64,000 nt of DNA from Terrimicrobiaceae bacterium (GCA_018402345.1 JAGYIV010000008.1:930001-994000), one strand, 5' to 3'; numbered from the stretch's first letter, positions 54,190 through 61,837 are shown. Notes: a model not told the origin generated them from the sequence alone. Made by a program: numbers and translations.

Positions 54190-54234
54190 TGCGCCCCCCG
54201 GGACTCGAACCCGGAACCAATTGATTAAGAGTCA
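54190..54234. repeat. attachment site, distal copy (truncated tRNA-Lys 3' end)
   Basis: Identical over 45 bp to 61793-61837. It begins TGCGCCCCCCGGGACTCGAA and ends in the anticodon loop at GAGTCA. A further 9 bp upstream (54181-54189) match with two differences. The acceptor 5' half and D arm of the tRNA are missing here, so this is not a working tRNA gene. Confidence 0.92.
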
Positions 54235-54316
54235 CAGGTTGCTCCTCTTGTAATTTGCTTCCTCCAAGTAAGAAGAGGAACGATGAGGAATCAAGAGGAA
54301 GGAAAATGTTGTTTTA

Positions 54317-54334
54317 TTTGTCACTTCATGTCAC
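54317..54334. promoter_or_regulatory. Candidate integrase arm-type sites, left end
   Basis: TTTGTCAC at 54317-54324 and ATGTCAC at 54328-54334, about 11 bp apart. The same TTTGTCAC word occurs twice with 11-bp spacing at the right end of the element (61707-61725). Nearby (54243-54299) lie TCCTCTTG/CAAGAGGA inverted arms and three GAGGAA words. Arrangement suits integrase or excisionase binding; not proven. Confidence 0.45.
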
Positions 54335-54392
54335 AAGCAAATCGACATGAACACCGGCCTTTGGAGCCCCGCTGAAATGGAGGTGTTTTGAT

Positions 54393-55658
54393 ATGCCTCG
54401 CGAGTTCAAATTTGAAATCCGCAAGGATACGACCAGAAACACCTCGCCTTGGTGGATCGATATTCCTCCGAGGTATTCGGAAACGGGAAGGCGGCAGAAG
54501 CGGTTTTTCAAGACGCTGGATCGGGCCAAGGGGGAATTGCAATCTCTCAAGGCTCGTGTGGCCAATCATGGAATCTCTTCGCGGCTTTTGGGGGCGGCTT
54601 TTGAGGAGCAGGCGGCGGCTGCGCTGGCTTTGCTCAAGGAAGCAGGGTTGGAGAACCGGCAGTTGGTCACAATCGTGGCGGACTACATCGAGCGGGAGCG
54701 GGCGCGGACGAGTTCGGTGACGCTTTTGGAATGCTTCAAATCCTACATCGGGCGGGCTGTAACGGACAAAAAAAGCGATGAGCACATCCGGGGGCTGAAG
54801 GCGACGATGAAACTTTGCGAACCGCTTCACGCCCGCTTGCTGCCTGACATCTCGCACACAGATGTTCTCGGGCTTTTGGATGGGTTCACCAGGAGCACTC
54901 ACAATCTCAAGCTCCGGCAGCTTCGCGCTGTCTTCAATTACGCGATGGAGGGAGGGCGGGACTGGCTCTCGGCGAACCCTGCCGACAAGGTGGAATTTTT
55001 CCAGATCAAGCTCGGGGAGCCGGAGATTTACTCGCCGAAGCAGGTGGCGGAGTTCTTTGAGATTTGCCGTGAAAAGGATCGGGACCTTATTCCGGCACTC
55101 ACGCTTCTGTTTTTCTGTGGGGTGCGGCCGGACCACAATTCAGGTGAGATCACGAAGGCGACATGGGAGCACATTCTTCTTGAGGAGGGCGATCCGAGGG
55201 TGGAACTGCCTGCGGCGATTACAAAGACGGGGAGGCGGCGCACGATCAAACTCCGCTCCGCTCCGCTGGCTTGGCTGAAGTGGTGGATTTCAACTGGCGG
55301 AACCCCCGAGGGGGCTCTTGTGGCCTCACCGGGGGAGCCTTTCAAAAAGCGGCTCTACACGGTTTTGAGGAGCAAGACGGGGCTGGACGACAAGCCGGTG
55401 AAGAGAATCAAGGATGGGACGCGGAAAACTTTCGCCAGCTATCTTGCGCGGGCGGAGACGAAGGATGCGGCGATCAAGGAACTTGGGCATTCGGGGGCGG
55501 ACCTGCTTGACCGGCACTACCGCTCGGATGTGACTGCGGCGGAAGCTGAGGCGTTTTGGTCGATTTTGCCAATTGCGCCAGAGATATTGATGCCGCCCGG
55601 TCCCCGCAAAAAAAGCGTGGCGGGCGACGAAAAACCTCCAGCGAAGAAAAAACCATGA
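54393..55658 (+). CDS. Tyrosine recombinase/integrase
   Basis: A 421-aa phage-type integrase. The N-terminal arm-binding part (to about 85) is followed by a core-binding SAM-like domain (about 100-195; TLLECFKSYIGRAVTDKKSD, LKLRQLRAVFNYAMEGGRD) and the catalytic domain. Active-site elements: Arg in LTLLFFCGVRPDHNSGEIT, Lys in ITKTGRRRTIKL, the second Arg in KDGTRKTFASYLARAETKDA, His in IKELGHSGADLLDRHY and the nucleophile Tyr of RHYRSD. GGAGG lies 10 bp before ATG 54393. Its position beside the attachment site makes it the enzyme that inserted the element. Confidence 0.95.
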   Translation: MPREFKFEIRKDTTRNTSPWWIDIPPRYSETGRRQKRFFKTLDRAKGELQSLKARVANHGISSRLLGAAFEEQAAAALALLKEAGLENRQLVTIVADYIERERARTSSVTLLECFKSYIGRAVTDKKSDEHIRGLKATMKLCEPLHARLLPDISHTDVLGLLDGFTRSTHNLKLRQLRAVFNYAMEGGRDWLSANPADKVEFFQIKLGEPEIYSPKQVAEFFEICREKDRDLIPALTLLFFCGVRPDHNSGEITKATWEHILLEEGDPRVELPAAITKTGRRRTIKLRSAPLAWLKWWISTGGTPEGALVASPGEPFKKRLYTVLRSKTGLDDKPVKRIKDGTRKTFASYLARAETKDAAIKELGHSGADLLDRHYRSDVTAAEAEAFWSILPIAPEILMPPGPRKKSVAGDEKPPAKKKP

Positions 55659-56407
55659 AATCGAAACAAAAAGATCCGTTGCCGCCTTCTTTCCGGGCGA
55701 AGATTATTCAATCCAGTGATGTTGGTCCCAATGGAGAGACTCCCATCGGGTATGAAATTCAGAATGTCGAGGAGATCGCTCGGGTGCCGATACAGGACAT
55801 TGCGTCCATTGCGGCTCAGTTAAATCCACCATGGGAGTCGCCTGTTGAGCGAGTGAGACAGGCTTTTACTTTGTTAGATGCGGCGGCGGCTGGGATGAAG
55901 GGGTTGATTCAAAAAGGCAGTGTGGAAAAGGGGTTTAAGGACTTCGTCTTCAAAAGGGACGGATACAAGGCATACCAAGACTTGCTTGCGGGGGCCAAAG
56001 ATGACCCGCTCATTCACACGAATGCTGCTGGTAAAAAGGTGGCTGATTTCGAGGGGGTGATGAAGTCGTTTTTCGGAGTAGGACAAAATGCGACCAGAAC
56101 TGAGCGGTTGGAGCGGCTTCTATGGTTCACCCAGGAGACCAGCTTTAATTCGAAGACGCAAATGAAGGGGATTTCTTTTGAAGAAGCCGAGGCTTGCCTT
56201 CTGGATTGGCAAGAGAATGGCATAGAAGAGTTAGGATACTGCTGGCTGAAGAAGCATTTTGCGCCTTGGTGGGAATTTCATGTGCGCAGGACCAAAAGCG
56301 CAAACGCCAGTGTTCCAAAGGGTAAACAGGGGCGAGTGAAGCGAAAAAACGACAAGCGGCGAGGGGCTCGCCCACCCAAGCTGACAGATGCTTTGAAAAA
56401 AAAGTAA
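55655..56407 (+). CDS. Unknown protein coupled to the integrase
   Basis: A 250-aa soluble protein whose ATG overlaps the integrase stop (ATGA). It has a charged, mixed alpha/beta middle (VPIQDIASIAAQLNPPWESP, FKDFVFKRDGYKAYQDLLAG, FEEAEACLLDWQENGIEELG) and a very basic C-terminal tail (KGKQGRVKRKNDKRRGARPP) suited to nucleic-acid binding. No family is recognised. Coupling to integrase suggests a role in integration, excision or element control. Confidence 0.82.
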   Translation: MKSKQKDPLPPSFRAKIIQSSDVGPNGETPIGYEIQNVEEIARVPIQDIASIAAQLNPPWESPVERVRQAFTLLDAAAAGMKGLIQKGSVEKGFKDFVFKRDGYKAYQDLLAGAKDDPLIHTNAAGKKVADFEGVMKSFFGVGQNATRTERLERLLWFTQETSFNSKTQMKGISFEEAEACLLDWQENGIEELGYCWLKKHFAPWWEFHVRRTKSANASVPKGKQGRVKRKNDKRRGARPPKLTDALKKK

Positions 56408-56443
56408 AAAAAGGCCCTTGACATAATTTTTTTGGACTTCGCT

Positions 56444-60757: not shown

Positions 60758-61081
60758 GGTGCCAGCGGACGCCGACCGGATGGACATCTCCGCCGACACA
60801 CTTCCGCGAAAAACATAAAATACTTTCGTCCTGATCGGAGAGGTGGCGATGGTTTTTTGCCGTGTGTCCGCGAAGCTGCTCCACCCGCGCTGCATCTTGC
60901 GTCCGGCTTCGCCGCAATGTCACGAATGGCCCCGCGAACCGCTCCGCTCCATCTCCATTCCACTCCGGCGATTTCCGCTGCGGCTGCGGTAAACGCTCAC
61001 TCTGGGGCGTGCGCTGTTCGGCACTCAGCGGCTCGTTCCTCGCCACATCGGCCTCTGGTGGGGCTGAAATTTCGTTTCGCT

Positions 61082-61188
61082 GGTCCGATAATGCCGTGTG
61101 GTGGATAGAGAGCTCGCTTCGCTCACCCCCGCCACCGGTGCCGCTTACAGGCGGCGGGGTTCTATCCACCACAGGCCATTATCGGACC
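61082..61188. repeat. Long imperfect inverted repeat
   Basis: Arms 61082-61109 and 61161-61188 match over 26 of 28 bases (left arm begins GGTCCGATAATG and ends GGTGGATAGA). The 51-base centre contains a second short pair CCCCGCC/GGCGGGG. The whole could fold into a strong cruciform. No T tract follows, so a plain terminator is unlikely. Confidence 0.8.
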
Positions 61189-61706
61189 TTACCTCCGCCT
61201 CCGCTCCAATCGCCTGCGCTCCATTGCGACTCCGCTACGCGGATCGCGGGGCCAGCCGCCACGCGGGTCTGCGGTTTCGGCGGCGATGGTTGCGCCTTGT
61301 GCTGGTGGAGTCCTGCGCGCCGCCGTTGTAGTTCGGAAGCCGGTCCCATGCCATCTGCGCGGGGGTGGTTCGGTGGCGGTCTGCCGCTCCCTTGAAGGTC
61401 GCGCCACCCACGCCCCCGCCCACCCTGCTCCGCTCGCTCGGGGAATCGCTAACGCTCTCCCCTCACTCCCTTCGCCCCCGCAAGGCCTGGCGGAGCCGTG
61501 CGGCAACTGCTCGCCGCCGCATCGTCGCCAAAACCTCGCCGATTACAAAAACGACTCCCGGAGATTTCCGAGGATTTGGGGCAGAGGGAGGAATTGGGGA
61601 AAGCTGCCGCGCGAGGTTTTGGTTTGCGCGTCGAGAAGGGAGGTTTTGGGTGCAGTCCGAGAATTTGGGTAGAGACGGGCTTTTTTTGGGGGGCAGGGGG
61701 GTAGGA

Positions 61707-61725
61707 TTTGTCACTTATTTGTCAC
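61707..61725. promoter_or_regulatory. Candidate integrase arm-type sites, right end
   Basis: Two direct copies of TTTGTCAC, 11 bp apart, 68 bp inside the right attachment site. The left end has a matching pair. A reverse-complement GTGTGAC follows at 61735-61741. Confidence 0.45.
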
Positions 61726-61792
61726 AGGAACTAAGGTGTGACTATTATTTGAGCAATGTTTCCTTAACTTAAGTTAATGCGGTGCAGAGGAG

Positions 61793-61837
61793 TGCGCCCC
61801 CCGGGACTCGAACCCGGAACCAATTGATTAAGAGTCA
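61793..61837. repeat. attachment site, tRNA copy
   Basis: 45 bp identical to 54190-54234; here it is part of the complete tRNA-Lys gene. The match stops inside the anticodon loop, a common crossover place for tRNA-targeting tyrosine integrases. Confidence 0.92.

Follow-up and report, generated by a model that had tools for sequence, protein, structure and literature searches.

A compact integrative element at tRNA-Lys(CTT)

Positions 54190-61837 of a 64,000-nucleotide stretch of a Terrimicrobiaceae genome (GCA_018402345.1, JAGYIV010000008.1:930001-994000; the whole stretch is hereafter called the window) hold a 7.6 kb integrative element at a gene for tRNA-Lys(CTT). The element is bounded by a perfect 45 bp duplication of the 3′ part of this gene: 54190-54234, the distal attachment-site core, and 61793-61837, the tRNA-proximal core within the tRNA gene, match at 45 of 45 positions, and lengthened leftwards the match covers 54 nt at 96% identity. 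The repeat is beyond chance, since the second-best match to the 45-mer within the window reaches 25/45. The tRNA gene, the predicted integration target, is intact on the minus strand (61792-61864). GC content is 0.53-0.59 inside the element, as against mostly 0.60-0.67 outside.

The plus strand of the 64 kb contains four occurrences of the 8-mer TTTGTCAC, three of which (54317, 61707 and 61718) lie within ∼130 bp of the cores. One repeat of this type adjoins the distal core (54317-54334, plus strand) and two, 11 bp apart, adjoin the tRNA-proximal core (61707-61725, plus strand); we infer that they serve as integrase arm sites. Between the cores lie seven closely packed, intact open reading frames (ORFs), all on the plus strand, followed by ∼1 kb of noncoding DNA ahead of the tRNA gene at the right end.

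Genes for recombination and replication

The first gene, int (54393-55658, plus strand), is predicted to encode a tyrosine recombinase of 421 aa (PF00589, 4.5e-7, above the cut-off; PHROG_1, 1.1e-23). Its stop codon overlaps the next ORF (55655-56407, plus strand; 250 aa) by 4 nt in an ATGA (55655-55658). No known family was matched when the proteins of such int-overlapping genes were searched, and a relative of the 250-aa protein was found in genome G018 (27% over 240 aa, E 1.9e-14). Then follows a predicted 76-aa DNA-binding protein with a helix-turn-helix (HTH) of the HTH_17/AlpA-Xis type (56603-56833, plus strand; PF12728, 4.9e-11; TIGR01764 excisionase, 3e-9).

The 303-aa product of the next ORF (56824-57735, plus strand) gave no family match in profile searches. 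Its AlphaFold model (pLDDT 90) aligned best to enzymes of the archaeo-eukaryotic primase (AEP) type, namely S-2L PrimPol (Z 11.1) and RepB′ (Z 10.6), and primase subunits from archaea and eukaryotes aligned with it as well; all of the first 48 matches listed were AEP-type primases or polymerases. Foldseek by itself gave a weak result (best E 1.4e-3). Conserved motifs are consistent with this fold, with ExD at E209/D211, SxH ending at H243 and GAD at 267-269, and on the strength of the model we assign the protein as an AEP primase. The adjoining gene (57732-59102, plus strand) encodes a predicted helicase of 456 aa, of the superfamily 3 (SF3)/D5 type with DUF5906 (PF19263, 3.9e-9; TIGR01613, the P4-family primase C-terminus, 1e-6).

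A prior sequence-only reading of this DNA had named an integrase, an excisionase-type HTH, a primase-like protein, an SF3 helicase, a C5 methyltransferase and an HNH nuclease, all in one direction. Profile matches, the AEP model and the intact ORFs uphold these genes; that list overlooked the 250-aa ORF. It had also remarked on the lack of capsid, portal, terminase and transfer genes, and indeed no convincing profile match to capsid, portal, terminase or relaxase families was found among the element's proteins, nor any partition or mating-pair profile among their matches.

Restriction-modification cargo exchanged between islands

Downstream of the helicase gene lie a C5-cytosine methyltransferase gene (59185-60147, plus strand; 320 aa; PF00145, 1.9e-70), most likely starting at 59185 by comparison with island L096 of the congener G011, and an HNH nuclease gene (60152-60757, plus strand; 201 aa; PF01844, 4.9e-8) that likely encodes a type II restriction endonuclease paired with the methyltransferase. 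The two proteins are 98%, and their DNA is 92%, identical to a pair in that different island of G011 (L096 6570-8142), where the left portion of the noncoding tail is present as well; the chromosomal flanks of the two genomes are only 67-69% identical. By this comparison, the pair has been exchanged recently between islands within the genus. The same adjacent pair also occurs on Acidithiobacillus plasmid pGT2, where an integrase gene neighbours it, and several viral contigs likewise carry it. Conservation as an adjacent pair points to a real type II restriction-modification (RM) unit, in agreement with the proposal that it is cargo of the element.

Two ideas about the specificity of this unit were rejected. 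Several plasmid relatives of the methyltransferase adjoin NgoMIV-family endonucleases, but the partner here is an HNH nuclease; the site GCCGGC is absent from the element against 3.8 occurrences expected, which is not significant given a general avoidance of palindromes (see below). One of the viral contigs in IMG/VR (3300045950_000071, L360), apparently a filamentous phage by a Zot-like ORF recognized by eye, carries the methyltransferase-HNH pair and then a Vsr-like ORF.

An unoccupied site in a congener

In the congener G003, the homologue of window positions 53863-54189 joins tRNA-Lys directly, without the 7.6 kb, and the window flanks, once joined, give a single unbroken alignment through this junction (71% over 412 columns). 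The junction thus represents an unoccupied site for the element, such as the sequence-only reading had proposed to look for. That reading had also considered that the 45 bp repeat might be an assembly duplicate. This is ruled out by the G003 junction together with two further observations: the window lies on a 1.02 Mb contig of a 3.1 Mb genome, and the element-side flanks of the two repeat copies are unrelated.

G003 instead bears another element, of 25 kb, at its tRNA-Lys, delimited by a core copy of its own, and in other congeners unrelated DNA adjoins tRNA-Lys(CTT). These comparisons mark the gene as an integration hot spot. The 25 kb element (L048/L049, G003:C12 19943-45317) carries an integrase, an ATPase and a primase as well as a large set of genes of defence type, in which helicases, a large methyltransferase-like ORF and an AAA ATPase were recognized by eye.

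The left flank of the window's element (53389-54189) is itself probably what remains of the right end of an older sibling, suggesting tandem accretion at tRNA-Lys. It contains a 126-aa ORF (53427-53807) with relatives beside tRNA-Lys in G003 and beside tRNA-Arg in the window's own genome, and a similar ORF, judged by eye, stands downstream of HTH, primase and helicase genes in G022 (L148 2125-2460). The copy in the window's genome (G000:C2:62790-63161, L062), beside tRNA-Arg(ACG), is probably another element scar. An M28 peptidase fragment suspected by eye in the left flank was unsupported, spanning 18 aa only.

A layout resembling that of minimalist phage satellites

Phage-inducible chromosomal minimalist islands (PICMIs) of Vibrionaceae, with a mean size of 6.7 kb, have as their core an int gene, an int-overlapping gene (iolg), an AlpA regulator (PF05930/PF12728) and a DUF3987/DUF5906 primase, followed by a defence hotspot that allows type II RM systems (PMC10803314). 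The PICMI int-overlapping gene is essential for excision, is present in 21/35 subfamilies and most commonly overlaps by ATGA; the islands, packaged as concatemers, have no capsid-remodelling genes and no identifiable packaging genes (PMC10803314). The window's element matches this description nearly gene for gene. It is of the same size class and has, in the same order, a PF00589 tyrosine integrase, an ATGA-overlapping gene, a PF12728 HTH and a DUF5906 replication protein, with type II RM genes downstream of the replication gene, large noncoding stretches and no capsid-remodelling or packaging genes. By position and ATGA overlap, the 250-aa ORF is an analogue of iolg.

There are differences as well. 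Integration at fis is a hallmark of PICMIs, and no complete PICMI was found outside Vibrio by the authors who described them (PMC10803314). The present element targets tRNA-Lys(CTT) instead of fis, lies in a Verrucomicrobiota host, has a separate AEP primase beside its DUF5906 helicase, and has some relatives that carry a small terminase subunit (TerS). Since the fis hallmark does not apply, we file the element as PICMI-like and not as a PICMI.

Our favoured explanation, which we consider probable, is that this minimal integrative element is intact, has been mobile recently and works like a PICMI-type phage satellite. The integrase, helped by the AlpA/Xis-type HTH protein and the int-overlapping protein, would recombine the 45 bp core, so that the element enters or leaves the 3′ part of tRNA-Lys with the tRNA restored. 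Once excised, the circle would replicate by means of the AEP primase and SF3 helicase that it encodes. Lacking genes for particles or transfer, the element would most likely move in the virions of a helper phage. The methyltransferase and HNH nuclease would act as defence cargo open to exchange, protecting the host and making loss of the element unfavourable.

Related elements at other tRNA genes

Relatives of the primase were present in 28 of 147 genomes of the same bacterial order. Seven elements, including that of the window, are bounded by exact tRNA repeats and measure 6.0-9.2 kb; they occupy genes for tRNA-Lys(CTT) (7.6 kb), Tyr (9.2 kb), Lys(TTT) (6.9 kb), Thr (6.3 kb), Gly (6.0 kb), Gly (6.9 kb) and Arg (6.4 kb). 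The element at tRNA-Arg has a fused primase-helicase that is related to the window's helicase, not to its primase. Family helicases are of the DUF5906 or DUF3987 type (DUF3987 in L159) or more diverged, and a 4 nt int overlap (ATGA or GTGA) was seen in eight of 21 family integrases.

The closest relative is the G003 element at tRNA-Tyr, bounded by a 58 bp tRNA repeat. Its order is int, an ATGA-overlapping ORF, HTH, primase, helicase, other cargo and the same noncoding tail. The gene order that the sequence-only reading had proposed to seek at tRNA-Lys in related genomes is found here at tRNA-Tyr. The helicase is 83% and the primase 62% identical to those of the window, and the integrase is different. 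DNA identity is confined to 57336-59112, comprising the primase end and the helicase (78%), and to the tail at 60737-61483 (72%). Between helicase and tail, the RM cargo has been replaced by a C5 methyltransferase and an MvaI/BcnI-type endonuclease.

Such swapping of RM cargo between elements, and the tandem remnants at tRNA-Lys with their signs of accretion and decay, are what would be seen if the element were a passive defence island that retains integrase-driven excision only, moves by occasional generalized transduction and carries its replication genes as leftovers. We regard this as improbable, because primase and helicase are intact and, along with the noncoding tail, have been conserved as a set through the turnover of other parts; replication is thus probably under selection.

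The family also bears on a further alternative. Relatives of the primase were found in viral contigs that carry large terminase subunit (TerL) and portal genes, so that the primase family is common to the element and to true phages. Its presence in real phages would fit a defective prophage shrunk by deletion, but we think this origin very improbable: the seven related elements all have precise tRNA repeats and measure 6.0-9.2 kb, independent decay would not arrive at one gene set every time, and no structural gene fragments were seen. For a PICMI-type satellite, the link to phages is strengthened by two relatives from other genomes of the order, found through their primase or helicase and not among the seven tRNA-bounded elements, in which a lone TerS is the last gene (L155 12049-12393, 2.7e-18; L084 11074-11685, 4e-18). 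No further packaging gene was visible among the ORFs surrounding either. A third TerS candidate, L150, had no family match and was dropped.

A conserved noncoding end with a covarying hairpin

The tail shared with the G003 element is a conserved, structured noncoding region (60737-61483, plus strand) whose relatives were found in 10 of the 16 genomes of the genus searched, the window's genome counted. Comparison with Rfam gave nothing convincing apart from the tRNA. In eight of the ten copies examined, a tRNA gene lies ∼100-490 bp past the end of the region (Lys-CTT once, Tyr four times, Phe twice and Lys-TTT once). Most of these copies look like scars without an element.

In the middle of this region lies a hairpin of two 11 bp helices with a small internal loop between them (61082-61188). 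Among its 22 pairs, 15 have changed on both sides and none on one side only; none of 500 shuffles and no slid control came close. A model of the hairpin gave strong matches in the noncoding region only, once per copy, including the copy in G009 that had not been used in building it. The hairpin was also seen at L060, L094, L095, L093, L097 and L099, at the tRNA-side end of elements or scars of the one genus.

We considered and rejected a structured RNA: folding-energy z-scores of the region are negative on both strands, and the hairpin pairs have no G-U intermediates. This absence of changes via G-U suggests a DNA-level palindrome, which fits better; template switching could likewise yield such two-sided changes. 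Our guess is that this end serves as a replication origin or packaging site.

Palindrome avoidance and the route of transfer

The element's genes (54393-60757) contain 32 6-bp palindromes against 106 expected, a ratio of 0.30. The ratio is 0.67-0.96 in chromosomal blocks of the window clear of the element, and 0.48 in the sister element. Such avoidance suggests that the element has repeatedly been exposed to foreign restriction and hence is often transferred.

Several results weigh against helper-phage packaging. TerS searches of the element's proteins returned weak HTH noise at most, and no packaging site was recognizable in the element. We found no helper phage and no packaged copy; no TerL of PHROG_15 was detected in the host genome, a search that likewise drew a blank in 10 of the 14 genomes used as controls. 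Searches of IMG/VR viral contigs brought up no close relative of either int or the helicase. In the same database a 28 nt pattern from the noncoding region had no matches, and an 18 nt pattern had 20, without real homology. Palindrome avoidance, finally, would equally fit a plasmid. Among named phages, the integrase was at most 22-29% identical to those of Akkermansia and Salinibacter phages, and neither helicase nor primase had relatives.

The element might be read as an integrative plasmid, replicating itself through primase and helicase and spreading by mobilization in trans or natural transformation, with no helper. A complete replication module without packaging genes, the same methyltransferase-HNH pair on small plasmids such as pGT2, and the avoidance of palindromes described for plasmids (PMC10359461) speak for it. 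We judge it unlikely, if worth keeping in mind: the element's profile matches include no relaxase or partition gene, and the TerS-bearing relatives, together with the PICMI layout and its int-overlapping gene, point to phages.

Discussion

The present comparisons confirm that a member of a verrucomicrobial genus harbours an integrative element that targets a tRNA gene, encodes a replication module of its own and carries RM genes as cargo. The sequence-only reading had likened it to satellites of the phage-inducible chromosomal island (PICI) kind. The satellite-like part of that view is supported by the layout, the TerS-bearing relatives and the phage-shared primase; PICI-like is better replaced by PICMI-like. 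Redirection of packaging by TerS is a common feature of PICIs. Compared by gene content alone, the element shares with PICIs (SaPI-like) an integrase, an AlpA/Xis-like regulator and primase/replication genes, and two of its relatives a lone TerS, but it lacks TerS itself. It recalls P4-like satellites in that its helicase is related to the C-terminal portion of TIGR01613, the P4-family primase model; it differs in that primase and helicase are separate proteins and that no packaging or capsid-size genes were found. Tycheposons, as summarized in PMC10872708, are cargo-bearing islands of 4-200 kb that border on tRNA genes and encode a tyrosine recombinase. In layout the element resembles these islands, being bordered by a tRNA gene and having a tyrosine recombinase; it stands apart by its defence cargo and by a size near their lower limit. 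As for integrative and conjugative or mobilizable elements, relaxase and mating-pair profiles were not found among its ORFs.

In a full-text search of the literature, no paper on phage satellites in Verrucomicrobiota came up. Tentatively, and with slightly more doubt than conviction, we propose that the element represents an order-wide family of minimal Verrucomicrobiota phage satellites, not described before, that use many tRNA targets and combine an AEP primase and an SF3 or DUF3987 helicase with defence genes or TerS as interchangeable cargo; within one genus, the elements would share a ∼750 bp noncoding end whose covarying DNA hairpin acts as a replication origin or packaging signal. The gene-level match to PICMIs opens the satellite idea to direct testing. 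Minimal satellites need a signal for replication or packaging, and the noncoding end conserved here offers a concrete candidate for it. Should these elements prove to be satellites, then minimal satellites that possess an int-overlapping gene would be widespread far beyond Proteobacteria, and would provide a vehicle that shuttles restriction systems among mostly uncultured bacteria.
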